Of a DNA stretch of 64,000 bases, positions 1 to 32,328 are shown in pieces. The number at the start of each line of letters is the position of its first letter. Within the stretch, counting starts at the first letter, position 1. Source of the DNA: Nymphaea colorata (Eukaryota; Streptophyta; Magnoliopsida; Nymphaeales; Nymphaeaceae); the NCBI RefSeq assembly GCF_008831285.2, contig NC_045146.1, forward strand, positions 6,398,972 through 6,462,971, in the 5' to 3' direction. Both the position numbers and the translations under genes were made by a program. Under the pieces are notes generated by a model. It did not search any database. It saw only the letters and a program-made list of their open reading frames with translations, and was not told the origin of the DNA.

Positions 1-924
1 GCTATAGAAAACAACTTGTAGATAGGTCTTGAAATCTGCTTAAGTATCAACACAACCAAACAGCCTCAAATCTCATGTTGCATGAACAAGCTGAAAAATA
101 GATTCACACATTAAAAATGAGAAAGTGACAAAGTTGTTACAATGTTGCTTTTTGTAGTGAACCGTGTAAGCATCTAATTTTTTGGATCTATTTGAAAGGG
201 GTAGAAGACTTGATTTTGGCTCAAAATTAAGGCATAGACTCATGACATAATAAAGAAACAACATAACTTGAAACTATAGGCACATATAGAAAACTTTTAG
301 ATTTGACAGAACTTGATTTGGAGTTATAGATTGAGGTAACCAAGTTAATTAATTTAGAGAAATTTCAATACTTATTTATGTAAAAAATTTATGACAAAAA
401 AAAAACAGTTTTGAGAATCGGTCCGAAAGAGGGGACAAATCACAACAAAAATTTGTAAAAATTCCAAGACACAAAGTAGACATGTATACAAAACTATATT
501 TTTTTACAATCAAGAAAATGATCTCTGCTATAAGAGATATAGCTATATCAATTTGGGTGAAAATCTATGTTCAAATAGCAAGTATGATTTTCACTTACTT
601 AAATTTTTGACATCTCTTAAACTAGGTTTTAGCAAAAATACCCAAATATAACAAAATTAATCGTGTGAATCAATCAATTAAGCACATTGGAATTCAAAAT
701 GAAGCAAATAAACTATGTGCATGTGCATTCATGTGACATACATAAAAACTATGTGCAAATATACCAATCAAATTAAGCAAAACAAATGAAATTGAACATT
801 TTTATATAAGAAACAATAAACTATGTGCATGTGCATTCATGTGACATACATAAAAAAAAGGAAGTTAACTAATGAAGAAGAAAAAAAATGTGAAAGAAGA
901 GAGGGGACATATGTGAAATCCATT

Positions 925-940: not shown

Positions 941-1154
941 AGAGAGAGATGTACTTTTTTCTTTTTTCTTTTTCCTTCTCTTTTCTTCTTTGGTGCTCCA
1001 CATCCAAGCTTCTTGGACTAACTTTGCAAAACATGCAAAAAAAGGGAATCGTTAGCATAAGCAAAATAATCAAAGTACATAAGAGAGAAAGGAGAGAGCT
1101 TACATTGAAAAACAAGCAAAGAAAGGGGAAAAGAGGGCTGGCCGCCCCCTACCC

Positions 1155-1163
1155 CTATTTATA
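1155..1163 (-). promoter_or_regulatory. TATA box of minus-strand LTR
   Basis: TATAAATAG on the minus strand, followed downstream by GGGGTAGGGGG and then a pyrimidine/purine-biased leader. The same arrangement recurs at 32,558-32,566 in the partner LTR, which supports a real LTR promoter rather than chance. Confidence 0.6.
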
Positions 1164-3051: not shown

Positions 3052-3064
3052 GCCCCTCTTTGCC
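3052..3064 (-). other. Polypurine tract next to 3' LTR
   Basis: The minus strand reads GGCAAAGAGGGGCA immediately before the U3 edge of the 1-3,050 LTR. A purine tract at this place primes plus-strand DNA synthesis in LTR retroelements. The exact LTR boundary is not clean because no canonical TG start is visible. Confidence 0.45.
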
Positions 3065-3119
3065 ATTAAGTAGATGTCCAGTTGTGGTTAGTGGCAAAGA
3101 TAAGAAGCTCTAAATTTTG

Positions 3120-3430
3120 AAAATAAATGCCCTAGTGTTGGGAAAAGTTCTTTGTTTTTAAAAACCATTTTGCAAATGTTTTGAGGAAGGTCATGAGAAA
3201 AATAAAGATGCCCTAGTATGAATACTGGGTAGGTACTACGAAATTTAATTGTTCCAAACATTGTGAGAATAAAAATTTCCTAGTTTGAGATTGGGAAAAT
3301 TTGTTGCTCCAAACATTATAATAAAAGATGCTCAAGTTTGAGAACCGAGCTGACGTTGTGAAAAATCATGGTTTTGATCATTGCAAAAGAAAGATGCCCT
3401 AGTTTGTGAACTGTGTAAACATTGTGACAT
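3120..3430 (-). repeat. Degenerate tandem repeat with a GGGCATCTTT core
   Basis: Four to five diverged units of roughly 65-75 bp, each carrying AAAGATGCCCTAGT on the plus strand followed by a GAACTGGG-like piece and an ATTGTGA/CATTGCA piece. The reverse complement of this core recurs at 16,080-16,540 as CAGTGTTCACACTGGGGCATC. The array sits just inside the polypurine tract, as in the other element. Confidence 0.65.
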
Positions 3431-4569
3431 TATGTGCCCATGATGGAGAAGTTTCAATCTGGGTCACCCTAAGGTGAGCTCAAGCAAGATCCAAAATTTT
3501 TAGTGAAACATTTCATTGTTAAATTGATAATCCTTTTGAGGACTTGTCCTGATTTTTTCACATTTTGAAAGGGTTGAAAAACTCACTCTAATTGTATAGC
3601 CTTTTAGATTCTTAGAATAAACTTCTCTTTATTGTCACTTTATGAACTTTTGGAAACTATACTAAACCCATGATCATTGGTTTGATGACATTTTAGCCAC
3701 AATGAATTTCACATTGTTCAGAAGAGAGTTTTAGATTTTGAACAGTTTCTACCTTTCAAGCAAGCACTCATTTTTTTTTTCTTTCCTTTTTGCTTTTGTA
3801 TTTTTTTCCTGAATTTGGGGCCTTGGCTCTTAAATTTGCTTTCTTTTACTTAGGCCAATGGGGCCACTTGGCTCTTAAATTTGCTTTCTTTTACTTAGGT
3901 CAACCTTCACCGCGCAAGGGAAATACCTCACCACCACATAGGTTACTATAGAGCTCTATCACTTTGATGGTGATCTATAGCTCTGCTACATGCAATGTCA
4001 TGTTTATAAGACTTTCTATTGAACTCATGCAGCGAGACTTCAGCAGCTCCCAAAATAATTGGCCTTAGGGTACTTGATGTGAAACATAATTCAGACTTAC
4101 TTGCTCGAGTTCAAAAGACTTTAGAAGACACAACTCAACAGAAGTTCATGTTTCACATAACTTTGTAGAATAGACACAAATCAAGCTTTATGCCTACCTA
4201 GAGCTCTTGAATACTGATATGGAGGAACAACTATACTTGCCCCGAGCCCATCTCTCAAGACTCATTTTGCAGCACCCTTGCTTGATTGTATCAAACTAAC
4301 TCGAATCTTTGTTCTCACATGAATTTCAGTAGGTTCATGTAGTACCTTTTGATCATTTGAACCAATAATATTTATTGAATTTTGACTCTTTCAAAATCAT
4401 GAAGTTTACTTCCTTGGTTCATGTCACGGCATTGTTGAGACTCTCATCCCTCGAAGCGCCTTCAAACAATGATTGGAAACTGTTTTTCTCTCAAATAGTG
4501 GCAAACTCTGATAAACAAGTTCTTTTGGGATGTCCAACTTCAAAATTCACTTCTTACTTTCGAATGCAG
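3431..4569 (-). other. Non-coding internal retroelement region
   Basis: No gene is recognised. The stretch from about 4,030 to 4,190 is an inverted match to about 15,000-15,200: both hold the TTCATAGAATAGAC-like, TTTAGAAG..TTTTGA and CTCGAGTTC/GAGCTCGAG landmarks, and the part around 3,900-4,020 matches about 15,170-15,290. It therefore belongs to the same family of internal non-coding sequence as the plus-strand element, in opposite orientation. Confidence 0.5.
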
Positions 4570-5540
4570 GTGCGCTCACATGTTGCTCAATGCATGAGAG
4601 TGCCAGATCAAAAATTTGTGTTTGTTCGGTTACTGCCCCAACAACATGAGTTCTTTTATAACTGTATGTTGCTCAATGCATACAGTCATGAAGGAAGTAT
4701 GTGTTTAAGTGTTGCTCTGATATACTCAAATAAGAAAAAAAGGTGTGTTCACATATTGCTGCCGTACACGTAAGTACGGGAGAATTAGAGGCATCTGTTG
4801 GTTGGGTTCCTACCAACATTATGTCTCTTTCGTGACTGCATGTTGCTCAATGCATGCAGGAAGGGTGTGCTCAAGTGTTGCTCCGGTACACTTAAATACG
4901 AAAATAAAAGTGTGCTTGCGTATTGCTCTGATACACATGAGTACGAGAGAATTAGAGGCATATGTTGGTTGGGTTCCTTTCAACAACATAGTCTCTCTCG
5001 TGGCTGCATGTTGCTCAATGCATGCAATCACAAAACGAAGGGTGCATGTAGTGTGGCTCTGGTACACTTAAACACAAAAAAAATGTGTGCTCACATTGTA
5101 TACGTGAGTACGAGATAATTATATACATGTGTTGGTTGGGTTCCTGCCAACAGACTAATCTCTCGTGGCTGCACGTTTTTCAATGCAGGCAGTCATAGAA
5201 TGAAGGTTGTGCTTAAGTGTTGCTCTGGTAACTTAACATGAAAAAAGTTGTGCTCACATATTGCTCTACTACACGTGAGTACAAGAGAATTAGAGGCATG
5301 TGTTGGTTGAGTTCCTACAAACGACATAGTCACACTCTTGACTACATGTTGTTCAATGTAAGCAGTCACGGAATGTAGGGTGTGCTTAAGTGTTTTATTT
5401 AGTATACTTGAACACAAAAAATACGGTGTCCTTACGTGTTGCACTGGTAGATGTGAGTACGAGAGGATTGAAGGCATGTGTTCTTTGGGTTCCTGCAAAC
5501 AACATAGTGTCTCTTGTGGCAGCGTATTGCTAAATGGCGG
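4570..5540. repeat. Satellite-like tandem array, unit about 167-178 bp
   Basis: About five head-to-tail units. The landmark GAGAATTAGAGGCAT recurs near 4,781, 4,948, 5,115, 5,287 and 5,463, giving spacings of about 167, 167, 171 and 178. Each unit also holds TTGGTTGGGTTCCT..CAAC, GCATGTTGCTCAATGCATGCA and a GTGTGCTCA-AGTGTTGCTC motif. Short ORFs across it are repeat products in several frames and are not genes. The array lies in the internal 3' region of the minus-strand gypsy element. Confidence 0.85.
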
Positions 5541-6671
5541 GGCCACATTGTGGCTGGTGTGGGCAACATGGAATTTGTTTTATTTTCATATATAAATTTC
5601 ATTAATTTTCATTTTTTCACATATAACTGCCTCTTAAATTTTGAAATTTAATGTATCACTGTCTCTTTTGGTTTCGCCACTGGTATAAAGAAAAACAAGG
5701 AATTATGTTTTTACAAAGAAAAAACTCGGTTTATGATGCATGTGGTTGGACCCTCGCTATTATGTCCAAAACTCGCCTTGATCTCTTGCCAAGCATGGAT
5801 TTATCTACCAGTTATTTCGCCTGGTTCTTTCTGCTACTTCTCATTTTTTCCTTTTGAGAAAGAAAGTCAAGGAAAGAAACACGAAGAAACAAAGGAAGGA
5901 AGAGAGCAGAAGGGAGTTCAGAGGGAAGGAGGAGGGACACAACAGCCAATCCCTTCATTCCCCACCTTCTCCTTGCCGCTCAACTCCCTTCTTCTTTCTT
6001 CCATTACTTCTCTTCTCAGTCTTTCTCTCCTTAAATTTCTTTCTCAAATGGATAAAAGGAAAATAAAAAGAAAGAACCTGACCAGATCTTTGATAGATAT
6101 ATCCATGCTTGGTAAGAGAACAAGGCCAGTTCTCCTCAAGAAGTCATCAAGGTTTATATGGACATAATTGTTGTGATCGAACCACATGGATCATAAAGCG
6201 AGTTTTTTCTTTGTAAAAAAGGAATTCCTTCCTCTTCTTTGTATCAATTTATGAAATCATCCAATTTTCTTTTCCCCTGTATACATTTCGAAAGAGAGGA
6301 AGGTGTGACCTTTGTCTGCTTTAGAAAACCATAATTGCGGTGGCGGCCACCCCATCCCATCTGCATCCATTGTCACTAATTCAGTTGATGCAAGGCAGTA
6401 ATTAGATCACTTCTTCTAGAAACAGAAATCCTGGACGCCATCCATGCATAGGCAGAGAGGGTGTGGGTATCGATTAGGTTGGGAATCTGCCCTCCGTGCC
6501 TATGCACAGAGGTCTGGCTCTCTTCAATTTTTTTTTAAATTACATGTAAATTTTAGAAAATTTTACTTGTCTAATATAAAAATTTTGAAAAGTGATGTTG
6601 TGGCTCATGTCAACATTTAGAAACTTTAATGTGCCTCCTCTCATGAAAAATTTATAGCTCCGTAGATGGTA
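5537..6671. mobile_element. About 1.1-kb insertion interrupting the tandem array
   Basis: The array stops inside a unit at about 5,537, after TATTGCTAAATG, and resumes at about 6,672 with GATGAATGCATG, the matching part of the next unit. The intervening sequence has no similarity to the units. A shared TATTG lies beside both junctions and could be a 5-bp target duplication. No clear terminal repeats or protein were found. It holds a purine-rich stretch (5,855-5,940) and a pyrimidine-rich stretch (5,950-6,040) that give low-complexity ORFs. Confidence 0.45.
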
Positions 6672-6860
6672 TTGATGAATGCATGAAGTAACATAAGGGT
6701 GTGCTCAAGTGTTGCTCTAGTACATTCAAACACGAAAAGAAGGTATACTCACACATGTCTTCTGATACACATGATTACGAGAGAATTAGGGGCATGTGTT
6801 CTGTCAACACAGTCCCTCTCATGGCGGCATGTAAAAAGGTGGGGATCCATGCACATAGAT
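6672..6860. repeat. Detached unit of the ~170-bp array
   Basis: Contains the unit landmarks GTGTGCTCAAGTGTTGCTC (6,700) and GAGAATTAGGGGCATGTG (6,781), continuing the array beyond the insertion. After about 6,860 the similarity ends. 6,860-7,089 holds nothing recognisable apart from a small GAGCTCCGAGCT inverted motif near 7,000. Confidence 0.7.
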
Positions 6861-7089
6861 ATGAATTTGATGTTCTCGTGCGCTGCACGCTGCAAAAGTT
6901 TTGATTTGCAGAAAAAGTTTGCTCCAACACGTAAAAAAAATCATGCAACATGTGCACTGCACTCATTAGGTACATCAGCAGTGGAGGTGTGAACTCTAGC
7001 TCGGAGCTCTACTGGTTTGTCCATCTCTCTAGCATTCTAGTTGCCCGCACTATACGTGTCTCTGCATCTTCCCTTCTTCCAACAATCTA

Positions 7090-7720
7090 AGTTCGGAATG
7101 CACGATATCATCAATGCAAATTACGCAGTGGATCAGGCTGATCTATGGATGCTTTTGGAGTGAGATCTAACAACAAGGTTATTGGAGAATTGGAGGCTTT
7201 CGCGAGCCGCACAAACATGGTTCATGTTGACATCGATCCATCCGAGATCAGGGCCTCATGCGTCGCTCTGTGATGATATTTGGTTGGCATTGGAGAGGCT
7301 CAACATGATGCTAGTGGAAAAAGGAAAGGTTAGTAGAAGCTTGGATTTCACAACATGGAGGAATGAACTAGATGCTGATGAGCAGAAGAAGAACTGGCCA
7401 TTGAGCTTCCTGAACTTCAGGTGAAGCGATTCCTTTGCAATATGCCATCAAGGTGCTCGACGAATTGACTAATGGAGAGGTGATGGGCATAGGTCTACAC
7501 ACCACAATCGGTGTTGCTGTCAGCAACCCAGTTTCAGCACCGGTTGACATCACTGGGGATGTGGGAAGACAAACTTTACAAGGTTAACAGAGCACACACA
7601 TATATTCGAAACCTAGCAAAGGAGAAGGAAATATTCCCGAACATGCTGAAATTTATAGAAACTTCGTGTCTGAGCATAGCGGAAGGACTCGCAAGGCGTT
7701 CCGGGGGTAAATCACGGTGC
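7090..7720 (+). pseudogene. Acetolactate (acetohydroxyacid) synthase gene fragment
   Basis: Broken fragment of the large catalytic subunit of acetolactate synthase, the thiamine-diphosphate enzyme that starts branched-chain amino-acid synthesis in plastids. Reading across frames shows [10 protein letters not shown] (about 7,114), a degenerate GVRxxxxVxGxLEAFASR stretch, [11 protein letters not shown], then a long in-frame block LALERLNMMLVEKGK..WRNELDA..WPLSF, followed by QYAIKVLDELTNGE, IGVAVSNP and finally WEDKLYKVNRAHTY and KEIFPNMLKF. At least three frameshifts or stops (for example TGA near 7,161) break it. Two segments of the normal protein are missing: the part between DELTNGE and the IGVAVSNP region, and the part between that region and WEDKLYK. 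No N-terminus or C-terminus is present. It cannot encode enzyme. It lies directly left of an LTR-like repeat, suggesting capture or a target-site relic. Confidence 0.9.
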
Positions 7721-7861
7721 TCTCAGTCGAACCTCTGCTTCTTTCTTTCTGTCCAGTTCATCTTCTTCTTTCTCCAGGTTCTATTTGATGTTGGTTTCCA
7801 TTTTGTGTGGCAGGGCAAGTGGAGCTGGCATTTCCAACTCTGAGATGACCATCGTCCCAGT

Positions 7862-10324
7862 TAAATACTTCTCAATTCAACTTGCATTTCTGGTAAATCA
7901 TTTCTTATTTCTATTTCACAACTTATTGTTCATTCTCTTGATCTCTTCCTGTAGTAGGTCTCAAATAGGCATTTCCTCATTTTCTTTTTATTATTTCCTT
8001 TCTTGTTCATAATAAATTTGTTGTGTATATTATATTGAGCGGCATTACTCACATGCATAATTCGTGTTGGGACATATCAATTTTTGAATGGTTTGTGCAT
8101 GGCCCCAATGGTCCTTCCCTTAACTTGTAGGCTAATATAATAGGAGGGTAGAATAATAAAAGGCCAACACAATTTCTCAAAATTTGGATTCAAATCGGGT
8201 TTATGATTTGACTCGGGATGGTTACATGCATGCTTGACTGAGACTTACCGGAAATTTGAGAATTTTGTATTCGGCATTTTGCGTTGAGGTTCTGGCTGGG
8301 TAGCATGATTGTGTAAGACTTTAATAATTACTCATTTGCTCGCCTACTTCTATTTGAATGTATGTCTGGCTGGGTAGCATGATTTGTAAGACTAATAATT
8401 ACTCATTTGCTCGCCTATTTCTATTTGAATGTATGGTTGCGAAATACGCAAATGTCATTTAATTGAATGTCAATCTATGCCCCTTTAGATGGAGAAAATT
8501 CTTGGGTTGGCGTGTGAAGTGAGCAGATGGTCAAATTCTCCTCTCCAAGTACCTCATTAATCCAAAGCTTACTCTTTTAATAGATTCGACCCGGACCTGG
8601 GGCCACATTAACAATGTTTTCAATTGTTTTTTGAATCCATAATCTCAATTTTAAAATTCAATCTGGTTTTCAAGATCATATATAATCTGTTTCATTAAAC
8701 AAGTCCAACATTCCAAACCCCCATTTTGAGATTCAAATAAGCCAGTTTATAAAATCCAAATATGGGAAGATTCAATTCAAGCCCATTTCGTCAAACCAGA
8801 TTTTTTCAAATTAATATCCAAATCAATTCTCCAAATTTGTAACCCATTTCTTCAGTCCATGTTCAAATGGGCCAATGTTCAATAAATTTTCGAATATTTA
8901 TTTCAACATACACCTGGATCACCCTGCACCCACGTACACCCCCTGTTTCAGAATAGGCCACGCTAGTCTTGTAACATCCCATGTGGCATTAGTCTAGATA
9001 TGTGAAGCTAGCCTGGTCCTCACATAGGAATCTTTTCAAAATCATAGTTTTCTCTAAAATGTTTCAAATTCAAATTCTTTAAATGATCTAAAAAACCATA
9101 GTTCATAAAGGCATGGAGTCCAAACCCAGTCCAGTCCTCTAAGCCCTAACCTAGACTGACCACCTTAAAGCCACTGCTTGTGAACCTAGTCCCATGGCCT
9201 AGATCTAGTCAATTTCCACAATATCCATCTACACAAGTCGAATTGAAATTATATTATGGATCATATGGTTTGACTAGGATCAAACATATTCACCACTACT
9301 AGAACCATCCCGAGGTATGTCTAAACCCAGCTTAGGCAGGACCAAAGTAAGTCTTTTGGCTAACCTAGTCATCAAAATCTTGAATTTTAGTCAGATTTGA
9401 TCTTAAACATGATATTATCATGAATTCAGATTTAGACATCAAGAATCACATTGATAGATTATGAATTTTAGATTGTGGATCTCATATTATGTATTTCAGA
9501 TTATGGATATTGAATTTCGGACCTCAAACCTTAGATTTTGGAGTCTCAATCTCAAATCTTGGGTTTTGGATAAGACCACACAATGAACGTTACAAACCAT
9601 AGACCAATCCCCACATAATCATGACCAAATACAAGATTTTAGACCACGACAATCATTAGATTTGGATTTGTTCTCTTAGGATTCAAATATTAAAAGATCT
9701 AATCATGAATAAAGATCAAATTTACTGAATTTTTGACCCAGGACTCTGGAACACAAATCTTCATGACATGATATGATAGTGAAGACTTTTATGACATCTA
9801 CTATTGCAATTTAGAACAAGAATTACATAAATTTCTCATATCATGACTATACTTCTTGGATTTCGATCCAGTTTTCTGCTAATAGGTCCATCTCCTACAA
9901 CTAAATGCTTGTAGAGACCTGATTCTGTGTCTATATGACCTAGCCTTGGATGCATCGTATTAGGTTAAGGATATCGATTGAGATTGATCTGTGATGATCT
10001 AGACATGAACATGCATCATCATTTAATTTTTCTTGTTCCTAAGTCTTTCTAAGATCTATTTAGATTTTGAAACATACATGATTTTAAAGGACGCATTTGC
10101 TTTTCATAGGTTTTGGATGACATTTAGACTTATGAAATGGAACATTTCAGTCTAGTCCTTTGTATGATTGGTCTAGGTAAAGGCATCATGAACAGTTAGG
10201 CCTCATATGGATAGGTGGGGTCTCATCTGTCATAATCCTGCACGAGGAAAAAATGTGAGTAAAGTTAAGCAAGTCCAATTTATTAAGGTCTGTATGTAAG
10301 TTTGAAAAGATTTACATGTAAACA
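7862..10324 (+). mobile_element. Left long direct repeat (5' LTR-like) of nested plus-strand element
   Basis: Aligns in the same orientation with 17,424-20,297, in the same order over the whole length: the AAATACTT..CTCAATTCA start, TTTCCTTTCTTGTTCA, the GGTTTGACTAGGATCAAACATATTCACCAC block, a long series of GATTTTGGATCTCAA-type phrases, and a closing AAGTCCAATTTATTAAG. It ends in ACA at 10,324, four bases before a primer-binding-like site. It carries a private 74-bp tandem duplication (units at 8,291 and 8,365) that the right copy lacks. No coding potential is seen. Confidence 0.65.
8291..8438. repeat. 74-bp tandem duplication inside the left LTR-like repeat
   Basis: TCTGGCTGGGTAGCATGATT followed by ATAATTACTCATTTGCTCGCC occurs twice, 74 bp apart, with few differences. 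The right copy at 17,790-17,880 has the sequence once, so the duplication arose after the two repeats separated. Confidence 0.8.
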
Positions 10325-10328
10325 AAAG

Positions 10329-10347
10329 TGGCAACCGTGGTGAGACC
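10329..10347 (+). other. Primer-binding-site-like sequence
   Basis: TGGCAACCGTGGTGAGACC follows the left LTR end by four bases. It resembles the TGGCGACTC..GGGGA type of tRNA-complementary site used by Tat/Ogre elements. A diverged equivalent on the minus strand at 26,809-26,791 reads AGTAGCAACCATGATGGAC. The tRNA assignment is inferred from memory of the family and was not tested. Confidence 0.4.
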
Positions 10348-11664
10348 TATCAGAACTTGACGAAGTACTTCAATTTTTCTATTTTCCAAATGTCATCCTA
10401 CCTTTATAGCCTCTTAGGTGTCCTCATAATTTGATGTATATGTATATATTTCTGATGTGTAGTAGGACTTAGAACTGAAAAAGATTTTCCATGTTCGCTT
10501 AGATATAAGATCACATTGTTACTCCACTCAATTTAAGAGATGTTTGAAAAACCTTTAGTTTTTTTTTTTTTTTCATTTTAACCCCCATCTTGGGTCCCAT
10601 TATATTAGAGCCAATTGTTTGTGCATGTACTTGCATATTTCAAAATTTTACCTCACCTATATGTGTTGGTCATCATGTCGAGGAATACTCCTTGTATGCA
10701 TAAGCTCGAGGTGGTTCAATGGCGGCTGGACCAATCTACTGGAGGCAGGTATTGGTCATGCCTTCATCGATATTGAGGCATTAGCCAAGTATTGGTGGGT
10801 GATAAAGGAGAATGAAGACCCTTAACCTTTAGAACTATGTCTAGAGGGGTCTATGTCATGCACTCTAGAATTTTTGTCCAAGTATGTAGGCATATCTAAT
10901 ATATGGAACAACTACCCAGATATCCAGTTATAAATCACCAAGCTTATTTCAATCAGTTTCATGACAGAGTAATGTTATTAAGGAGTGTTGTTTGAAGCAT
11001 TCTTTATGTTTCTTGTTGGATTACATATTTATCTACTTCACATGCAGCACATTATGCATAAGATCTTTCATAAAAAGTTAGATTGATTTTCCAAAAGAAC
11101 CCTTGTTTTCCTATGTCAAAACGTCCGAAATTTTAATTTCATGTGTTGTCTTGTAGGATCCCTTCAGCTCGTTAAAGTCAAAATTGTCATTTAGTTGAAA
11201 CATATTATTGTGTCGAGCCTGATAGGCACAGACTCATCACCTAGTCTGACCATCCTCTGTTTGTATGCCCATTTGAATGTCTGTCTTGATTCCCCACCAT
11301 GGCGTTTTTGTCAGTCACTATGATTAGTGACTCGGCCACATTATACATTCTATTCTTAGTGGTGACCCAAATACCAAAATCTATTCCCCAACCATAAGTA
11401 GAATGTTGAAATTTCAAATCAAGCTTAATATTATTTTATTTTTTGTCATGTCCCATGTAATGTATGGATGATGGGATCCCCTCCTCACACATCTTTCTTC
11501 AATAGAAGTTGATTTTCCTTCTCTCATGATCAAGTCTTTTTATATTCTTTCATGTGAAATATCAACTGATGGCGGCTAGTCTCTTGTCTTTATTTACGGA
11601 TTCACTTCACTACCCTTCATATTGGGGCATTTTTTATAGGAACATTACAAGTTGCATTCCAAGA
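10348..11664. other. Internal region of the nested element, no recognised gene
   Basis: AT-rich sequence with a 12-base T run at 10,560. A 68-codon plus-strand reading frame (10,619-10,825) is rich in tryptophan (WTNLLEAGIGHAF, LAKYWWVIKE) and could be a gag relic, but I recognise no domain. Nothing else stands out. Confidence 0.4.
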
Positions 11665-11672
11665 CAAAAAAA

Positions 11673-12633: not shown

Positions 12634-12779
12634 CAAAAAAATAGCCACAAAAGATTTTTCAACAAGAAAATTTTCTCATCTTTTAAAATTTGAGGGCAAT
12701 TAGTCCACATGTCTATACAATCCAAGTACATACTATTTTTCTAAGTTTTGTGATCATTTCAAGACATAGTTTCTCTAAA

Positions 12780-14640: not shown

Positions 14641-16069
14641 GTTTCTTACAAGTTATCATATTGCATCCTACAAACACTTACTGATTTCTGTTTCTTTACA
14701 AGGACAAGAAAATTTCAGCCGATAATTTGATGATTGTCGAAAGGCAAAAGATTTGACAAGAGTATATTATAAGCCATGAACAAAGTTCAAGGAAGCAAAG
14801 GGAATTGAAAGTCTAAGAAATGTCACTCGCTTTGAATTCTTGTAAAAATAGAAGCTCATCAAAATTCAACCAAAAAGCAAAAGGCTAGGTTGACATAGAG
14901 AAAAGTAAGCAAAATATGACAAAATGAGCACTGAGAGATGATCTCGGGGTAAACGTAGTAGTTCTATTGGATCAGTACGTGAGAGTACCAAGTAGGTGCA
15001 AAGTTGATTTATGTCTATTCTATGAAGTTATGTGGTCTATGAACATTTATCTAGTCACATCTTCTAAAGCCTTTTGAGCTCGAGCAAGTAACTCCAATGG
15101 GTGTTCTACACCTAGTACCTTAAGGCCAACTAGTCTGAGAGTTGCGAACCCAAAACCTATTACAAGGCTTCAATAGAAAGCATAATAATCATGACATTGA
15201 ATATGACAAAGCTGCATGGCCATCAAAGAGAAGGAGGTTCAAAGTGGCCTATGGGGTGGCAAGGTAATTCCCCTACAAGTGAAGGTCGGCCTAAAAAAGC
15301 AAGAAAGTAAGAACAATAATGAAAAGAGCCAAAAAAATGGCCAAATTTGAGGAAAATTCAAAACAAGCAAAATGCCTGCCTTTAAAAAAAAAATCATGGT
15401 TGCTCAAGTCAAGAATTATCTGGTGATAAAAACATAGGCTTCTTTTGATTATGAAAGGATTGAGGGTAGTGACAAATCATCACTAAGAAACCTTATGACA
15501 TGGAGAGCAACTTTTTTGGCTTACCATTTGGAAATGAAAGCACAATTGTTTTAGATGGACTTCATAATACTAGCTGCAAATTTTGTCCTTATGGTGAAGG
15601 AAGTCATACAAGTCCTTATAAGGTACAAGAGATACAAGCAAAGGCGATTTCTCAAATTTAACAGGCATTTCACAAACATTTCACAAGCACTCACAATTTG
15701 ATGTGAGATTTCCATGCTGTGGTGCACATAAGAATTTTACAAGCACTCATAGTTTGATGTGAGATTTCTACACTTTGGTACACACAAACATTCCACAAAC
15801 ATGTATGTTAGATTTTCGTGCTCACAAGCATACATGTACATGCATTCCATTGAATGAATTTCACAAACATTTCACAAGCACTCACATTTATGTAAGATTT
15901 CTGCCTCGAACATGCACAAGCATACAAACTCAAGCATTCCAATGCATAAATTTCACAAGTCAACAAATATTTTACAAGAACTCACATTTATGTAGGATTT
16001 TCATACTTCGATGCACTTAATCATAGAAGTACATGCACTCCAATGCATAAATTTCATAAGCATTTTTAC
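14641..16069 (+). other. Non-coding core of nested element with dispersed repeat phrases
   Basis: No gene is recognised. 15,000-15,300 is an inverted match to 3,900-4,190. 15,660-16,060 returns to a repeat built on TTTCACAAGCACTCACA..TTTGATGTGAGATTTC and a GTACATGCATTCCAATGCATAAATTTCAC phrase recurring near 15,837, 15,930 and 16,031. Confidence 0.5.
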
Positions 16070-16540: not shown

Positions 16541-16599
16541 GCTTTGAACAAGTATTTTGAAACAAACACCTTTCAAGTGGAAACTTAATCCTCTGGATT

Positions 16600-19500
16600 C
16601 GTTTCAAATGCTTCAATCCAAATCCAGATCAAAATCTAATGATTCATATTTAAATTAACTGAATTTCAAACAGTTTAAGTTAAACTCTAAGATTTGGTAG
16701 TGATTTTCAAAATCAATCGGATTTTTTCAAATAAATCTAAATCAATTCTACAAAAATTGTGAATTTCATTCACTTGCAAGGAATGTCAAGCAAATTTGGT
16801 GCTGAATTAAAAATATTCCAAAATTTTCATAATTTTCAAGAGATGCTTAATTGATTCTAAAATCAATTTTAATACATTTTTAAAACAATTTTCAAGGATT
16901 TTGAAATAAATTGGATAAACTTTCAAATAATTTCAGGTCAAATTTTAAAAATGTCTAAAAACGTTTTGAAGTGAATCTCAAAAGTTTAAAATAAAATTCA
17001 ATGAATTTTAAGTCAATTTCATTTCATTTTGATTTTAAAGAAAAATTTGAACTGATCAATTGTAATTTTGTAAATTTTTAAAGTTTTAAATTTCCTATTT
17101 TACCCCTTCCATTTTTCTTTTTTGTCCTTTTTTCCCATTTTCTTTCTCTCTACGATTCCTCTCTCTCTCCTTCATCGCACTCTCCTACTCTCTTCCATTC
17201 TCTCTCGCTCCCCTTTTCCATCTTGGCCATCTCCTTCCCTTCTTTCCTTCTTTCCTTCCATTAGCTATTCAGCTCTCTGTTATTTCTCTTCGTCTCCTCC
17301 ACCACTATCGCAATTCACTGTTGATGCCATGGCCTTCCTCTTCTGCAGAAGTATCAGCCACCCACCGGCATCCCATGTTGCGTCGGTCGTGGACCAGACA
17401 ACCTCCCATCATCCCAAGTAAATACTTTTTCTCAATTCATTTTGCAATGTGTTGTTCATTGTCTTGATCTCTTCCTATAGCACCCTCTCGCATGGGCATT
17501 TCATCATTTTCTTTTCATTATTTCCTTTCTTGTTCACAATAAATCTGTTGTGCATATTTTACTGAGTTGTGTTACTCACATAAATTATTTGTATTGGGAC
17601 ACATCAATTTTGATTGTTTGTGTGTGGTCCAAATAGCCCTTCCCCTAAAGAATAATAAATGGCCGACACAAATTCTCAATATTTGGATTCAATCGCGTGT
17701 ATGATTTGATTCAGAATAGGTACACGCGTTCTTGAGTGAGATTTGGCGGCAATTTGGAAAATTTATATTTGAGCTTTTGCTTTGGGTTCTTGTCTGGCTG
17801 AGTAGCGTGGTTTGTAAGTCCTTAATGATTGTGAAATACCCTAATTAATTCTCAATGTCTGGCTATTTCTGTTTGAATGTATGGTTGTGAAATACCCTAA
17901 TATCGATCTGTGTGCCACTAGATGGAGAGAAATCTTGGGTTGGCGTCTCCGGGATGAAGTGAGGAAGTGACCAAGTTCTCCTCTCCAAACACCTCTTTAG
18001 TTCAAAGCTCTCTCTTTCAATAGATTCAAGCCAGACCTGAAGCGACATTAACAATGTTTTCAATTGTTTTCAAATCCATCTCAATTTTAAAACTCAATCT
18101 GATTTTCAAGATCATATATAATCTTATTTCATTAAATAACTCCAATTTTCCAAACCCCCATTTTAAGGTCCAAAAAGTCAGTTTCTAAAATCCAAATCTG
18201 AGAAGATCCAATTCATGACCATTTCATTAAACCAAAATTTTCAAATTAATATCTAAATTAATTCCCGAAATTCATAATACATTTTTTCAGTCCATGTTTA
18301 AAAGGACCAATTTTTAATACATTTCCAAATCTCATAAAGTGGTTCTCAAATTAAAATGGATTCCATACTCAATCAAGTTATATACGGATTCAAATAAATT
18401 AGATTTCAAATTTTAACCCAAGTTCAATCCAAATTCCTATATTAAACTCAGAGACCAAAACTCACTTGCAAACAAGCAGCCTTTCAAATCCATACCCAAA
18501 TGATTTCAATCCAGATATAAACCCAATAAAAACATATTCCCATGTGCAGAACTTATCTTCAACAAATTAGATTTCCAATTGGCATCCAAACTGATCACAT
18601 CCAAAATAATAGGGTTTTCAAATTAATTTCTAAAAACCAACGACAGTTATGTGTGTGGATTGTGCTTACGGCCCTAAAATGTCATCGAGCTGCCTCAAGT
18701 AACCAACATCGTTTTTTCATTTCTGATGCGTTTCTTTCATTTTTCAAATTAGAATCCATCCAATTCTCGAGAGAATTTAATGCATCCATTTCTCCTTTTC
18801 TATTTCAATTTTATAATTAGTTACCTTCTGCTTTTGCATTTTGCATAATAGATTGTATTACACATTTATTTCAACATACACCTGGATCACCCTGCACCAA
18901 CGTGCACCCACTATTTGAAACCAGACTAGGCTAGTCTACTAACATTACTTGTGGCATTAGTCCAGGTATGTGAAAACCTGAATCTAATATGGTCCTTACG
19001 TGAGAATCATTTCAAAATCTAGTTTTCTCTAAATTCTTTTCAAAGTCAACTTCTTTAAATGATCTAAAAAACCATAGGTCATATAGGCATAGAATCCAAA
19101 CCTAGTTCAGTTCTATAATACCTAACCCAGACCGGCCTTGGAGCCCACTACTTGTGAACCTAGTCCCATGGCCTAGATCTAGTCAATTTCCTCAATATCC
19201 ATCTACACAAGTCGAATTAAGATTATATTTTGTTTCATATGGTTTGACAGGAATCAAACATATTCACCACAATCCAAACTATCTATAGGTAGGTTCAAAC
19301 CCAGCTTTGGCAGACCGAACTCAATCCTTGGGCTGACCTAGCCCTAGTCATCAAAATCCTGGATTTCAGTCAGATTTGATCTTAAAGATATATTATCATG
19401 AATATGGATTTAAACCTCAAGAATCACAATGATAGGTTATAAATTTCAGCTAATGGATCTTAGAGTATGAATTTCAGATTATAGATTTCAGAGTTTGAAT

Positions 19501-20297
19501 CTTGGATTTTGGATCTCAAACCATAAATTTTGGATCTCAGATCTCAAGTCTTGGATTTTGGATCAAACTTCACACAATGAACTTTGGTTTATAATCCTTA
19601 GATCAATTTCCATAGAATCATGCCCAGGATTTGAGACCACGGCAATCATCAAATTTGGATCTATTCTCTTATAATTTGAATATTGAAATATCAATCATGA
19701 ATGCAAGATCAAATTTATTGGACTTTTGACCATGGACTCTAGATCATTAAACCTCCTGATATGATATATTTTAGATTCTACGACATCTCCTATTTCAATT
19801 TAGAACAGAAACTACATAAATTTATTAGATCAAGATTATAATTCTTGGACTTAGATTCAGTTTTCTCCTAATATCTCCATGTCCTACACCCAAATACTAG
19901 TAGAGACTGCATTCCAGATCTATATGAACTAGCTTTGCATGCATCTTATTAGGTTTAGGATACTGATTTGCCTTGATCTGTGAGGATCCAGACATGAACA
20001 GACATCAAGGTTTAATTTTTGTTAATTAGTCTATTTTTGAGATCTATTTAGATTTTCAAACGAAGGGACATTTGCATTACATAGGTTTGGGATAACATTT
20101 AGACTTACAAAATGAAATATTTTAGTCTAGTGCATGGTCTGATTACTGCTGGTAAAGGCACTAAGAATGGTCAAACTTCATACCAACATGTTGTGTCTTG
20201 TCTCTCGAAATCCAGCACAAAGAATGGAGGCAAATATAAGTAAACAAGTCCAATTTATTAAGATTTGCATATAATATTGAAAAATTTTATTTGTACA
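16600..20297 (+). mobile_element. Right long direct repeat (3' LTR-like) of nested plus-strand element
   Basis: From 17,424 to 20,297 it aligns with 7,862-10,324. The part 16,600-17,423 has no counterpart on the left; it is AT-rich, then becomes strongly pyrimidine-rich (17,100-17,300), like a plant transcript leader. The repeat ends in TGTACA at 20,297, and from the next bases the minus strand reads as gypsy integrase, so the element seems to have landed in, or truncated, that pol gene. A 99-codon plus-strand frame (17,122-17,421) comes from the pyrimidine-rich leader and is not recognised. Confidence 0.55.
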
Positions 20298-21330
20298 TGG
20301 GTTCCCACTTTCCTCAGGGGTGATGTCTCCATGCAATGGTTGATTTGAGCACAAGGCATTCACTTTGATTTTTCTCTCGATGATTGTCTTAGCATAATGT
20401 TTGGCTACTGTCTAGCAATATGCTTTAGCGTGTTTTGCAGCTTCCAATCTTTTCCCTTTGAAAATATCTAATTGCAATATTATCTGCTGCTGATACTGAT
20501 CCACAGGCAATTCTGTGACTGCGGCAAATTTGGATGTTGCCTTTTGCACATGAAGTGCGTACACCACATTTGTCCCATACACTAACTCCATAGGAGTTGC
20601 ATTCATAGAAGTTCTAACAGTTGCCCTATAGGCCCATAATGCATCATGAATCTTCTCATGCTATTCTCGGCCTAACTCAGCCATCCATTTTTAATTCTAA
20701 TCAATATCTTGTTTGTGGCTTTTGTCTAGAGTTTACCTTGTGATAGTATGGTGCTAAAAAGTGATGCTTGATCTTAAGTTTGGCATAGAAATATCGCGTA
20801 CATCTATTTTTAAAGTGTGCCCCACTATTTGAGATGATATCATGAGGTATTGTGAAACTAATATTATTGTGAAGTGAAAGCCACCACGTTGCCTACCTTC
20901 CATTGTTTTGAGAGTGATGGTTTCTACCCACTTGATGAAGTATTTAGTGGCTGCAAGAAAGTATTGATGGTTGGATGCAAAAAAATTGATGAGAGCTACA
21001 ATATCAAATGCCTATTTTTAAAAAGGCTATAGTGAGACTACCGAGTGTAAATATGTAGCTGGTGCATGAATGAAGTCTGCATGCATGTAGCATTTGAAGA
21101 ACTTCTTGACATATTTGTGACAATCTTGCTGCATAGTTAGCCAATAATAGCCTGCCCAAATCAATTACTTAGTTAGAGTTTGGTAGCTTGCATTGCCACC
21201 ACAGATTCATTTCTGTGCTTCTTTGATTACTTCTAGTGCTCTCTAAGCATCTGCAATATTAGGCACTGAAGTCATTCATGTATAAAATTTTACCGAATAT
21301 GAAACATCGACTAAAGATTCTTTGGGCGGC
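20298..21330 (-). pseudogene. Ty3/gypsy integrase remnant
   Basis: On the minus strand, in broken frames, the integrase order is visible: CHKYVKKFFKC and HADFIHAPA (zinc-binding side and start of the core), then YFLAATKYFIKWVET, the usual Y-F-T-K-W-V-E signature of the catalytic core, then a decayed SQIVGHTLK stretch where the family has a DNG motif, and at the C-terminus TPMELVYGTNVVYALHVQ, EKRLEA-like GKRLEAAKHAKAY and GDITPEESG. The second catalytic Asp is lost in the frame read. Several stops and frameshifts are present. Integrase inserts retroelement cDNA into the genome; this copy cannot. The family fits Tat-type gypsy elements because a second RNase H lies just upstream. Confidence 0.88.
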
Positions 21331-21489
21331 TGACCACTCTTTTTTAGGCATATTAGGAGGAAAGTCCCCTATTTCCAAGTAGTTCTTTATCTATCTTTTG
21401 ATGCCATGGTGATTTATGTGCATAAAACTGCTATATCTATTTTGACATTTCATAGGCTAATTTGGTCAGCCTTCCGATCTCAAAGGCTC

Positions 21490-21720
21490 TGCATGGTTCA
21501 GATTTCTTGAAGGTGATAATGGAGCCTAGGCAGATCGTTCACTTTCCATTCTTCATTGACTTGATTCATAATAAGAAAAATACCACCACAAACATGAAGT
21601 CTTTTCACATTGAATTCTACCAATATTTTAAGGCCTTGAATAAAAGCTTCGTATTCTGGCATGTTGTGTGTGCAGACAAATTCTAGCCTTAAGGTGATAG
21701 TAGAAGGACTCATATTTCTA
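21490..21720 (-). pseudogene. Second (archaeal-type) RNase H remnant of Tat-lineage gypsy element
   Basis: The 71-codon frame reads RLEFVCTHNMPEYEAFIQGL then KRLHVCGGIFLIMNQVNEEW, matching the additional RNase H that Tat elements carry between RT-RNase H and integrase (usual form L-F-x-C-T-N-N-x-A-E-Y-E-A then L-x-V-x-G-D-S-x-L-I-x-x-Q). The GDS Asp expected of the active site reads GGI, so this copy is catalytically dead even before its truncation. It lies in correct order between the RNase H at 22,044 and the integrase. Confidence 0.85.
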
Positions 21721-22043
21721 TTCTCGTCATATTCTTAGATCCGTTGAAAAACAAGGTCCACATTGCATAGACTTTACATGTAAGATGTGTGCATTAGGGA
21801 AACTGCCTCTGCTTTGAGTTTTTCTGTCAAGGAAAAATCGACTAGTTGATCTGCTCTTCCATGTCCTTTTATGGACTTTTGAGGCATCTATTCCATATTA
21901 TACTGCATGAGCACTTGCATTTGAAGTTTTGGCCATTGAGAAATGGTTGTTTCATAATGTATTTCAGGGAATGCAATCAAGAGATCACCTTAACTTCACA
22001 TGATAGAAGGTAGTGCTCGACTTTCTGACATGTACAAGTTTTT

Positions 22044-22960
22044 TCATTGTGAATATGACTTTTCATGCTGCATAAAGGTCATGCTTACGTAGGATATTAT
22101 GTGCTTAATTTTGCCCCATTGTTCATATTGAGCTGAAAAATCTGCACAAGCTGAGTCATTCATAGAGACATATAATAAAAGTGGTTTTTGAAATATTGGC
22201 CAAAGAGTAAGCAAATTCAACATGTACTGTTTGACACATTCCAAAGACTACTGATATTGTGGGCCCTACTCAAATTTGACCTTTTTTTTGAGAAGATGGT
22301 TGAATAACTCACATTTGACTGCCAAGTTTGAGATGAATCTTTTGATTGTTTGAATTCTTCCATGCAAGCTTTTGAGTTCCTTAAGGGTCCTTAGGGCAGA
22401 CATGTTTATTATATTCTTAGTTTTTTTTCAATCTACTTTAATTCCTTAATTACTAACCAAATAACCAAGAAATTTTTTTGTTTCAATATTGAATACACAT
22501 TTTTGCAGATTACATTTCTATTGGTACTAAATCAATATGCCAAACACCTGCTTGTGGACATCAAAGAGACTGTTCGAGTTTTGTACTAATGTCTATCAAT
22601 ATATCAATATTTTGTAATGGATAATCATCTTTAGCATGAATCTATTGAGAAATCTTTTAACCATTCTTTGACCTTGTCCTTAACTCTAGGGTCTAACTTC
22701 CTTAATTTTTGCTTCACTGGCTTGCTCCTCGGTTTCAAAATTAGTTTGTGTTATCCCAGCTTTGGATATAACCTTGTCATGTCCTTATAGGTCCAAGCAA
22801 ATAAGGTTTTGTATTTTTCAAGTTATTTGATGAATTTTTCTTCTTCCTCAACATCAAGGTTCTTATCAATCTGAATCATTTTGGGAGCTTTCTCTATCCC
22901 GATGTTAATTCCTTTGGTGGGATCATTGAGGATCTTTTTTTTTTCAGTTATGCCAATTCT
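22044..22960 (-). pseudogene. Ty3/gypsy reverse transcriptase and RNase H remnant
   Basis: Read right to left on the minus strand: INIGIEKAPKMIQI (pre-RT linker), LEKYKTLFAWTYKDM, then KPVKQKLRKLDPRVKDKVKE (RT N-terminus), KDDYPLQNIDILID, then KCVFNIETKKFLGYLVS, LRTLKELKSLHGRIQTIKRF (RT thumb) and KPLLLYVSMNDSACADFSAQ..YVSMTFMQHEKSYS (RNase H). The palm with its YVDD active site is missing: the text jumps from NIDILID to the pre-KCVF helix within about 100 bp. Stops break the frame throughout. Normal function is copying element RNA to DNA; this is a dead relic. Confidence 0.92.
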
Positions 22961-26809: not shown

Positions 26810-29800
26810 TCTATTGACCATGCAAAATTTCAAATTCTTGCATACTCCCACTATACATATGAGATGAACAAATCAAATATTAACTCACCTCTATATTCTC
26901 ATTGTTGGAATCCATGAGAGATAGGAATTGACTTGTTAGTATGGCATCTGAATGTTCATGTCGCCTTTAACAAGAGTAATCAGATGAAGGATTAGATTAA
27001 GTATTTAAGGTCCCAATATATGATTGTCGTTAAACCTAAAAGCAAAGGGTGTCCTAAATTTAGAAGACGAAAGGGTTTTAAAAAGATAAGTGGATCATCA
27101 GAAACTGGAGGACATGAACTGAAAATACTTAAATTAGATGATATAGTTCATGATCCGTATCATCATAAATCCACACAATGGCTAATTCCTAAATCTAATC
27201 TAAACGCATGCAAAACTAGATTTGATAGATAATTGAGATCTGACATCTAAGTTCGTGACATGGACCTAGGGAAAACTTGATTCAAAGTTCAAATCCAAAT
27301 TCATTGACGAAGGATGATCCAAACATTTAATAATTGATCTAGACACACGGTTTGGACTTAAGGTTATCCTGAAAGGGTTTCAGTTCAAATTCTAACTGTG
27401 GATTGATTGAAAGATATAACTCCAATTCATAAATGACTTTGAACTCAAAGTTCATAACCTGAATCCAAAATGTATTCAACCATTCAAATCATATGGTTTC
27501 CAGATTTAAGATCATGGACTCTAAGGTTCAGAATAAAGAATTTGAAATCTTAGCTCGAATTAAATTAGATCCAAATCCATAGATGTTAATGTACAGTCCT
27601 AACGTAGAATCCAATTCTCACAAGATCTAATTATTTAATTCCTTTGATCTTTGAAATCCTAATCACATAAAATATATGAAATTCAAACTCAAATCCAAAG
27701 TTGCATTTGATTTCAAGTTGAATATTTAAATCAAATCGACTCATATCTAGATCCAATTTCCCCAAGTTCCATACTTCAACTTAATTACAGTTTAGGTTAT
27801 TGTTTAGGTTTAAATGGACCAGGGTTTCTGCCTAACTTCAAGTGGGTTTCGTTGTGGGCTAGGATGTTGCTGCATGTATATAGTTGATAATATTAACTTG
27901 ATTAACATGAAACCTAATTCTTTGTGCATTTTTTGAAATAGATGAATGCATTATGAAAGCAAAGTATATGAATGCAGACAAATAAGCACATTACTGAAAA
28001 TAAAATAAAGCAAAACAAATATACTTGTATGAATTACATTTTTTTTCAAATGACAAGGACTTCATATTGAAAGTAGTGTTTCTAACTTGATAAATCAAAC
28101 TTAATGAGAAGGGTCTTTTGCTACAAGCTCAATCAAAACCCTAAATTCATTTACTGAAGTCCAAATGCAATGTTTTGAAATATGATACATGAATAATACA
28201 CATTTAACGATGCATGAATGCAATTATTCAAACAAACATGTTCTAAGAGCTTAAAGTGATGATTCATGAGATTAACCATGGTAATGTTGTATTTTACCAC
28301 AAAGCATATACAAATATTTGATTTAAAATTGGAATGAAACATCCCCAACTAGGTGGAAAAATGAATAATGGCCAAATCCTAGAAAAACTACAACTTATTT
28401 TCAACAATTGATTAGTTCAAAAAGGTAGGCAAAGTATTTCCCATCTTCATGAACAATTGGGTTGAGAATCTCCACATATCAAATAATTAACTTCAAGTGA
28501 TAAAACCAAAAAATCTATGCTTTGTAAAAGGATTCCGAACAAGAAATTGGTGCACAAAATAGAACAAAAACTAGTTTTCCTACTATGACCTAAAACATAT
28601 CTGCACTACTTGATTGACCTAAATTTGGACAGTAGATTCTCTCTATGACAAATAGTCAACTGAACTTTATAGATCCAATAAATAATAAGAAATGATAAAG
28701 TTATTTGTCTACAAATTTTGGTATAGAAACAAACTTACAGACATATTCTAAAATATGTCTAAATATTAGAAAACAACAAAACAATCTCAAAACTCATGTT
28801 GCATGAATGCAAAAGTTGATATGACAGTCTTCAATTGTTGAGAAACTTTGTATACTTACTCTCTATATTTCAAGGTTTCAATCACAAGTGAAATTTTCAC
28901 AAAATCATTTGTGGACAAAACATATTAACTCACAAACCTAGATTGCTGATAATTTTCTATAGAAAAATAGAAAGCAAAAAAGAGTTCCAATCACCAATTT
29001 TGTCAATATGAAAAATAATATTAAATCTGCATAGATCAATGCCTAATTTGGTCTGTAAAATCTCTACATATCATAGAATCTATAGAGACTTGAAGCACAA
29101 AAAAAGATCCATAAAAAAAAGAGTTGTACATCAAACAAGTTGTTCTAGTAAATCGTAAAGATAAAATTCTGCAGAATGGGTCATCATTGTAATAGTTTCT
29201 GTATGAATTTTAAAATACATCAAAAGTATGGTTAGAATATTCATATTGATATATAATTTGGTCTATAGGTTCTCTACTTATTAGAGAACCTAAAAAAACT
29301 TACAGATTTGAAAAAGCACTTCCAAACATTAAAACATGAACATGATAAATTGCTAAAAATTAGCTTTTCATAGTTGTGCAAGCATCCAATTTTTTGGATG
29401 TATTTGAAAAGGGTAGAAAACTCGGTTTTGATTGAAAATTTGGGCATAGACTCATGACATAAAGCAAAAATATAGAACTTGAAACCACTATTTTTTTTTC
29501 TGTAGACTTCTATATAAACTTGCTGAAAATAGGCCCAAGTGAAACATTAAATTAATGGGTCAAATAAGCATGGAATTACAATAGTTGACACATATAGAAA
29601 ATTTTTGGCTTTTATAAAACTTGATTTGGAGTTATAGATTGAGAGAACCAAGTTAATGAATTTAGATAAATTTTAAGACTTAGTTCTTTGGAAAATCAAA
29701 AATAAAAAAACCAGTTTTAGGAATTGGACAGATAGAAGGGTCCAATTACTACAAAAAATTGTAAAAATTCTTACACACAAACTAAGCATTATATAAAACT

Positions 29801-32328
29801 ATATTTTTTTATGGATCATGAAAAAGATATTTGGTATAAGAAATAAAGCTATTTAAAGTTCGGTGAAAATCTGTCTTGTGACAGCAAGTCTGATTTTCAC
29901 TCAACTTAAATTTTAACATGTTTTTAAACTAGGTTTTAGCAAAAATATATCAATATAGCGAAATTAATCATGTGAATCTATCAATTAAGTACATTAAAAG
30001 TCAAAATAAAGTAAGTAAATAGAAATTAATGCTTCATTACATGAATCAAATTAAGCAAAATAAATGAAATTGAACACATATATATGAAAAGCAATAAACT
30101 ACATAATATCAGGTGTAAAACTAACATTTGTTTTTTACCATATTCTTCTGCATAAATATAGGATATATCATACATGTACCTAAGTTTGCTGTTTTTTTTT
30201 TATTTATGGAGTTTCAAGTTGAACCAAATCCATCATTTGATCCTGTTTCAATCCAAGATTACACCTAGGGATAAAACAATCATTTTCTTGTTTATATTTT
30301 CCACCTAAACCTAAGTTATATGTCATATATACCTAAGTTCATCAAGCTTATCGTTTCAAATCTCTAGTGCCCCAGTTTGAAATTTCTTTTTCAGTTTAAA
30401 TACATAAATGAATTTAGATCTACAACCAAGAGCAAACTAGTCATTTTGCTTTGAGGCTTTTACTCATGCCCAAGGCTTTAACAATGTCATTCTGCACTTA
30501 GGTTGTATGTTCCATATGCCTATTAATCTGTAAAATTTTTTGAAAGGAAACCATACACAACCTTGATGAAAAATATAGACTCACCTCCATTTTGGTTGAA
30601 ACTCATCCTCTCGGTACGAGGATTGATCGTTCTTAGCACCTTTTCTAAGGGTAATCAATGGTTTGTCTAATACTTAATATTCTAAATGTGATGCTTCAAC
30701 CCTAATGAACAACATAAAACACACATGCATATGAACATAAGTTTAAAATGGAATTGGTTTTTTGAAAGCTAAAGGGGCCCTCAGGGCTTCGGCCATAACA
30801 TGCCTCAAGGTTCTCATATCATCATTGGGTTATGACATGCAATCTACATCTACATAATACATGCAATTAATAGAACTAATTCCAAATATGGAATTTGATT
30901 TGGAAATTGGAGATAAAATCATGATTGCAACTTCATTTTGGAGGAAATTGGACATTGGATTTGATTTGAAATTTGGTAGGTAGACTCTCTGCACAACAGA
31001 TAATCAGACACACTTGACAGATTCAAACAATCAGGGTAAAAAGTTATGGCAAGACGAACTGGAGCACAAATATGATTATTAGAGAAATGGCAGAAAACTA
31101 TGTTTAACTAGCCTATTTGAAGATAAAAATTGATTATGCAAATGGACTACTTTTCGCTTGAAATATTGAGCATAAAATTTTGGCATTACAAAAAAAAAAA
31201 ATGGAATTTAAATAATGAGAAAACTACGTTTCAATAGAAAGTTATGGCATGATAGACTTCACAAAAAACTGTTTTGTCAGGAAATTGTAGAAATTAATAA
31301 CAGAAACCTCTTCCGAATTTTTTTTTTAACATCCTATCAAAGCAATTTAAATTGAGATAAAAATTGGTTCAGACATACTAGACACGCATAGAAAAGATAT
31401 AGGTTTTACAGAATGAAAATCAGAGTCACGGAACTTGAGTTATAGATTTCCAAAATTGGTAGATTTTCTTGACCTATTTTCTGCAATTTGAAAACTGCAG
31501 AAAACAAGTTCTAAAAGCTTAGATACATGGTGGAACAAAACAAATTAGATTTTGTTGAAATTTAAAGAAAATTAACTAGATGCATGGGAGAAATATAGGT
31601 CTCTAGCCTAGGTCAAGTCCGAACTGACGACTCGACGCTAAGGACTCGATCTTACGCTAAAAACTGTTTAGGGAAAATCTAGATTTTTCAGAAAACAGAT
31701 TTTTGCTTCAACTAAAGAATCCATGTCTCTAAAATGTCGATCACATTGAAAATCATAGAACACAATGACAAATACTAGCAAATAATGATTTTTAACACAC
31801 ATAATAATATCATTCCTGAAAAATAATAAAAATAACTAATTGAGGCATGCTAAAGAATCAAAACTAAATAATTATAAGATAATTAGTTACGAACATGATG
31901 CATGAAGATATTTTGCATGAATCAACCTATTCATCAATTGTCATAGCTTGTAGATTCATGAGAATGAATGTAAATATGTTACTCACGGAGAAACGAAATG
32001 AATTTATGTTGCCAAGAGTGAAAACCATGTCTATAAGAATGGATCGTCCTCTTGATGGCTTAACTCAAGAATATGCATTACATTTATAAATATAGATTCT
32101 AATATATGATGCCATGAATCGAATACTTCAAGGAGCTTACATCAATATAGGTGATCCAACCATGAAAATCGTATAGGCTTCTTGGAGAATACTTCATCTA
32201 CAAAGAAGAGTTATTCATCCTAAGCCATCAAGATTATAACAAGAACACAATAATAAACAAAGTAAATAAGAGAGTATCCATAGAAAACTCCACACATACA
32301 AAGGCTAGAACATAAAGAGAAGGATGGC

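Follow-up and report, generated by a model that had tools for sequence, protein, structure and literature searches.

Gene fragments are common in the repeat nests of plants, where they are often dead, and captured genes in LTR elements sit between the LTRs of their carrier. A gene piece that adjoins an LTR needs caution: it counts as cargo only if it lies between the repeats. Host gene fragments accompany LTR elements among those of PMC3726574 and in maize Bs1 (PMC7264820). The closest kind of case, as far as the accessible text of these papers goes, is that of wheat, where non-collinear gene fragments and pseudogenes in repeat DNA are ascribed to filler DNA or to transposon capture (PMC3445842).

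Elements of the Tat lineage are the other point of comparison. In the accessible parts of the papers describing them, Ogre and Retand have the domain order RNase H, second RNase H, integrase (PMC6317226), and Retand elements have a long region from pol to the 3′ LTR, which carries antisense ORFs and, in roughly half of these elements, tandem repeats; the LTRs of recently active elements measure 315–1,194 bp (PMC11963269). Most antisense ORFs of Tat elements are described there as being of unknown origin (PMC7264820).

The locus described here lies in a 64-kb stretch of DNA, the whole of which was analysed and is called the window. A dead piece of acetolactate synthase (ALS) stands in it beside two related LTR retrotransposons, an inner one on the plus strand and an outer one on the minus strand (Table 1). 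Like the wheat fragments (PMC3445842), it is a truncated, frame-broken host gene piece amid transposable elements with no sign of selection; unlike the wheat case, its mechanism is inferred. Like Tat elements (Ogre/Retand; PMC6317226, PMC11963269), the outer element appears to have RNase H, a second RNase H and an integrase-like domain, with tandem repeats after pol, and like their antisense ORFs (PMC11963269) a foreign coding piece appears antisense in its pol-to-3′ LTR region. In contrast to Retand (PMC11963269), the host element is decayed, the repeats measure ~2.5 kb (inner) and probably ~3.3 kb (outer) versus 315–1,194 bp, and in reads of limited sensitivity TRP28 had no antisense match in either the outer left part or the inner interior. 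The relic is akin to the LTR-element cases above in being a host gene fragment found with LTR elements, and differs from them in its place, which is not between the nearest two LTRs, and in its antisense orientation relative to the outer element. Most likely, the ALS piece is ordinary genomic debris, a dead fragment that sits where two related retrotransposons form an old nest.

Table 1 Positions of the features at the ALS locus
Feature	Position	Strand	Basis or remark
Outer element, part of 3′ LTR, continuing past left window edge	105..823	-	K2P 0.245–0.249 to right copy
Outer element, block common with inner, upstream of 3′ LTR	3881..4269	-	match to 14920–15306
Outer element, tandem repeats, period ~167; degenerate extra copy 6636–6832	4617..5536		
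ALS pseudogene fragment, residues 303–604	6965..7654	+	tblastn, frameshift-aware alignment, shuffles
First large deletion junction, ~33 residues (479–511)	7479..7480	+	gap within tblastn match 457–538 / 7414–7560
Second large deletion junction, ~35 residues (539–573)	7560..7562	+	residue 538 ends at 7560, W574 begins at 7562
Stretch between ALS and left long-repeat copy	7655..7848		no homology clearly beyond shuffles
Inner element, left long-repeat copy (LTR); 5′ end loosely placed	7849..10324	+	3′ end by comparison with outer element
Inner element, PBS-like motif opening the leader	10329..10347	+	aligned with outer leader
Block common to inner and outer elements	14920..15306	+	70%, 393 columns, to 4269–3881 minus
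Inner element, right long-repeat copy, ~533 extra bases at 18331–18863	17406..20297	+	sequence comparison with left copy
Five bases past right copy, candidate target-site duplicate	20298..20302		exact partner absent in 6469–8000
Outer element, RNase H-to-integrase remains, cut by inner element	20290..22247	-	
Outer element, integrase-like remains	20290–20642	-	tblastn, Tat-type probe, E 9.4e-14
Outer element, second RNase H remains	21501–21734	-	Pfam RVT_3, 5.2e-4
Outer element, RNase H remains	22047–22247	-	Pfam RT_RNaseH, 2.4e-4
Outer element, 5′ LTR region, from 30101 or farther out (5′) to about 26821 (3′)	26821..30101	-	leader alignment

A decayed acetolactate synthase relic

Both tblastn and a frameshift-aware alignment match the relic to residues 303–604 of Arabidopsis ALS; of 223 aligned residues, 124 are identical, and the alignment contains six frameshifts. 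Its frameshift-aware score reaches 427, while shuffling the same DNA gave at most 50 (n = 40). When the readable pieces were joined as a single query, phmmer against the PDB found Arabidopsis ALS at 1.4e-38. The aligner was purpose-written, and its query was the Arabidopsis ALS protein, verified for residues 86–670 against PDB chain 6u9h_A. The colinear homology is far beyond chance, and the plus-strand relic is a pseudogene piece of plant ALS (acetohydroxyacid synthase large subunit).

The preliminary description had recognized an ALS fragment with two internal deletions and several frame lesions, all of which are borne out here, the deletions removing ~33 and ~35 residues. Its extent of 7090–7720 holds for the core of the fragment and needs correction at both ends, as the true start was missed by ~125 bp on the left and homology on the right is supported only to 7654. 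Both gene ends are missing from the homology. Upstream of 6965 the signal for an N-terminal extension is not above that of shuffles, and a nine-residue match that would extend the C-terminal side beyond 7654 was rejected, as 431 of 1000 shuffles equal its score. Elsewhere within the 64-kb window, ALS has no match at E <0.9. Among the papers listed by a literature search on ALS, pseudogenes, and retrotransposons, none names ALS in its title.

Decay was gauged by conservation, which was scored for 220 of the 223 sites in the alignment on the best 80 of at least 594 ALS-encoding prokaryote loci (chiefly bacterial, with one titled Methanosarcina). The sites at which 95% or more of the 80 loci have the Arabidopsis residue were regarded as near-invariant (n = 38); the relic keeps 26 and has lost 12 of them. 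From the most to the least conserved class, its identity is 17/24, 9/14, 9/15, 27/46, 29/52, and 32/69, staying within 46–71% throughout. Because identity climbs only mildly with conservation, the constraint on ALS is gone, and the six frameshifts, the two large deletions, and the lost near-invariant sites all mark loss of coding constraint.

By simulated neutral change, 26/38 corresponds to a neutral distance of ~0.17, with a rough range of 0.1–0.3 that is our own reading of the binomial spread in the simulation table. Without the deletion-edge sites K403, G486, and K559, 25 of 35 are kept and the distance becomes ~0.15. The K2P distances are 0.233 and 0.255 for two parts of the inner repeat pair, and 0.249 and 0.245 for two parts of the outer LTR pair (163 and 511 sites), so that both pairs stand at ~0.12 per lineage. 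As the ALS distance of ~0.17 is near this value, the time since the relic lost its constraint is about the age of the nest; the range of the ALS distance spans both and does not give the order of events. The chief value of the relic is that of a dated marker where two related elements form this old nest.

Two related elements near the relic

The long repeat noted earlier at 7.8–10.3 kb is real, its left copy pairing with the right copy at ~17406–20297 (K2P 0.23–0.26). In blastn, 7901–8895 and 8896–10320 match 17428–18330 and 18864–20295 directly, at 73% and 77%, and the earliest detectable homology, at 7849/17406, is weak (E 0.002). The ~533 bases at 18331–18863 of the right copy are without counterpart in the left one.

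The motif TGGCAACCGTGGTGAG follows the left copy from 10329, and the inner leader (10301–11252) aligns with 26834–25902 of the minus strand at 60% (E 9.6e-35). Because the motif and ~900 bp align in this way, the left copy is taken as a 5′ LTR followed by a primer site and a leader, and 26.8 kb as the equivalent place in a second, opposite element. A 26-base pattern for the block common to both elements gave 0 matches in viral_contigs.

Six-frame Pfam searches of the inner interior (10300–17500) gave no match, nor did the longest ORF of the inner element give a credible one. The inner element thus looks non-coding and may be LARD-like, with a long LTR pair and no detected domains between; these long reads are of limited sensitivity, having missed outer RNase H pieces that shorter reads found. 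TRP28 had no match on the antisense strand of the inner interior in reads of the same limited sensitivity. A 207-aa open frame runs antisense to the inner element at 11673–12296 (minus) in a G+C-rich island, with no credible Pfam match; G+C is 50% in 11501–12000.

At its ends, no purine tract lies beside 17406 among the tracts found, and no exact TGGGT that could serve as the inner target-site duplicate occurs in 6469–8000, which is hardly informative at such divergence. An extension of the right long repeat upstream of 17406 was considered, as 15761–17037 resembles the outer LTR, and was withdrawn: 2 of 100 shuffles reach its score, yet the antisense strand gave 100 and an unrelated control stretch 105.

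The outer element runs on the minus strand in the order leader (26834–25902), RNase H, second RNase H, and integrase-like stretch, consistent with the Tat-lineage order. The Pfam scores of RT_RNaseH and RVT_3 fall just under the curated cut-offs, and the integrase-like stretch, 37% identical over 93 residues to the Tat-type probe, is traceable to ~20303, where the inner element begins; Pfam did not recognize integrase in the pieces 20415–20660 and 20757–21011. The element has LTR copies and a leader homologous to the inner one, with no polypurine tract evident at the left LTR. Of 26821–30101, only 28722–28807 and 29323–30101 match the second copy, 105–823 being the copy of 29323–30101, and an LTR length of ~3.3 kb is suggested by this partly matched span. 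Such a length would be outside the range of 315–1,194 bp given for Retand. Where the left outer LTR starts is tentative, because to the right of 823 it is the plus strand that is rich in purines, the opposite of a polypurine tract for a minus-strand 3′ LTR.

TRP28 (PF04195) had no match at E 0.01 on either strand of 1–7100, again in reads of limited sensitivity. As TRP28 was not found and the repeats are beyond the Retand range, the outer element is placed in Tat without assignment to a clade within it. A weak homology of 978–1166 to 32384–32569 (64%) suggests that the right outer LTR continues past 30101 with ~2.2 kb inserted. In the outer tandem-repeat region, the 566 bp at 5681–6246 are almost wholly palindromic (69% when matched with their reverse complement), resembling a foldback or MITE insertion.

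To the left of ALS lie the tandem repeats and the common block, and to the right of the inner element lie the integrase-like stretch, RNase H, leader, and LTR. The left part is probably the 3′ half, and the right part the 5′ half, of a single minus-strand element that the inner one interrupts, and ALS appears to lie antisense to this outer element, between its pol and its 3′ LTR. The relic is outside the inner repeat pair. It had been described as sitting directly left of the long repeat; the repeat is confirmed, but its detectable homology begins ~195 bp past the end of ALS.

The intervening 7655–7848 resembles nothing clearly: of 100 shuffles, 29 reach its score to the outer LTR, 36 that to the inner interior, and 3 and 6 those to the outer left part, which include a pyrimidine-rich match near 7718–7774. 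The score of 7714–7860 against the pyrimidine-rich sequence to the left of the right copy was reached by 47 of 100 shuffles. No continuation of the integrase was found left of the inner element on either strand of 1–7900 or 7000–8600 with three probes, possibly insensitive, and 12 shuffles each.

Possible origins of the ALS piece

On its anatomy we are confident: the dead ALS piece should lie inside the outer Tat-type element, antisense to it, beside the inner insertion and outside the inner element. As for its arrival, we tentatively favor, with somewhat less than even confidence, an insertion at the DNA level such as a repair patch. The related inner element, without detected coding domains, would have inserted into the outer integrase gene. 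DNA at the junction, comprising the outer integrase end and the left long-repeat start, would have been lost, a loss proposed because neither was found. The ALS piece may have been copied in as a patch at the DNA break, after which it would have decayed neutrally. DNA loss with an ALS patch would be the simplest single event to account for the junction, and the accessible text of the wheat paper describes, for plants, break repair with gene-bearing filler DNA at transposon insertions (PMC3445842). We infer the patch indirectly, from its surroundings. In its favor, ALS homology reaches neither end of the gene, no A-rich tail was seen after the piece, and no clear terminal inverted repeat flanks it.

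Flanking repeats bear on this as well. A 10-base exact direct repeat at 6865–6874 and 7783–7792 brackets ALS and would fit a discrete insertion of ~0.9 kb. A repeat of this kind arises in 36 of 2000 shuffles, and this one was found post hoc, while such repeats were being sought. Two further 10-base direct repeats occur in 6400–8200, one of them spanning ALS (6648 and 7649).

Ten bases are also within the range of MULE target duplications, as would be expected if ALS were cargo of a decayed DNA transposon, a Pack-MULE or a Helitron, that landed in the outer element. Elements of these types commonly contain gene fragments (according to the accessible part of PMC13317346). On the other hand, 6400–8200 has no clear terminal inverted repeats flanking ALS, the longest arms being 21 bases at 81%, and we regard this origin as improbable. 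Five CTRRT sites with a hairpin occur in the same interval, a count that carries no chance control.

The main rival to a patch, which we consider rather unlikely, is that ALS was ancestral antisense cargo of the outer element between pol and 3′ LTR, and that its cut end was brought up against the left repeat of the inner element by a subsequent deletion. A single deletion would then explain the lost ALS end, the lost integrase end, and the lost repeat start. The position, antisense between pol and 3′ LTR and by tandem repeats, is that of the Retand antisense-ORF region (PMC11963269, accessible part), and the decay of ALS matches the outer LTR pair in age. At 0.15–0.17 it may be slightly older than the inner insertion at ~0.12, which fits an earlier presence in the outer element, with overlapping ranges. 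Against this, transduced genes usually stand in gag-pol sense, and antisense ORFs are not considered to be such genes, as far as the accessible text of PMC7264820 tells. The larger claim, that the outer Tat-type family bore a host ALS fragment in this antisense slot before spreading, seems unlikely to us. If true, the slot of the antisense ORFs would have a rare traceable host origin; copies of the outer family sharing the ALS piece would give sequence in the Tat antisense slot a traceable origin.

A host ALS pseudogene that predates both elements, which then inserted on either side, is also improbable. It would account for ALS without both ends, for element sequence on each side, and for old decay, and the start of the left outer LTR is tentative, with no polypurine tract evident there. 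However, the two sides look like opposite ends of a minus-strand element, the 3′ end to the left of ALS and the 5′ end to the right of the inner element; with the LTR copies at a K2P of ~0.25, ALS lies most simply inside one element. The preliminary description had offered an old insertion-site relic as one of its two readings. Old, dead, and beside an insertion it is; its surroundings have the look of the interior of a second, related retroelement and not of native single-copy DNA.

The other reading offered there, transduced cargo of the large non-autonomous element at 7.85–20.3 kb, fares worst. ALS is close to the left repeat and points the same way as the inner element. However, its place is outside the repeat pair, and beside the right copy there is no ALS, leaving cargo of the inner element unsupported, and 6840–7720 shows no homology to the inner interior above chance (on the two strands, 6 and 10 of 100 shuffles attain the scores). 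Since captured genes lie between LTRs, usually in sense, and 5′ transduction is unreported in plants, the inner and the outer element both fall short of a textbook carrier. Cargo of the inner element would need precisely such 5′ transduction, for which no plant example is reported according to the accessible part of PMC13317346, and we hold it to be very improbable.

Other sequences in the window

Window G+C is 36%, and the contents are plant-like and nuclear: the plant-type ALS relic, a homeodomain ORF, and Copia- and Gypsy-type remains. The homeodomain ORF (224 aa, 46702–47376 minus, Pfam E 1.9e-10) resembles what we take to be a WUSCHEL-related (WOX) gene. The Copia-type element at 49461–54281 has LTR-like ends 88% identical (K2P 0.132), an ORF with RVT_2 reverse transcriptase, and two almost perfect internal tandem duplications of 117 bp and 81 bp.

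At 33976–34395 a 140-bp unit occurs three times head-to-tail with 97–99% identity, probably a recent duplication. A direct repeat pair, 35604–36064 and 37669–38094 (76%, ~2 kb apart), is perhaps a small LTR element, and the 228 bp at 42459–42686 form a foldback-like palindrome, 67% identical to its own reverse complement.
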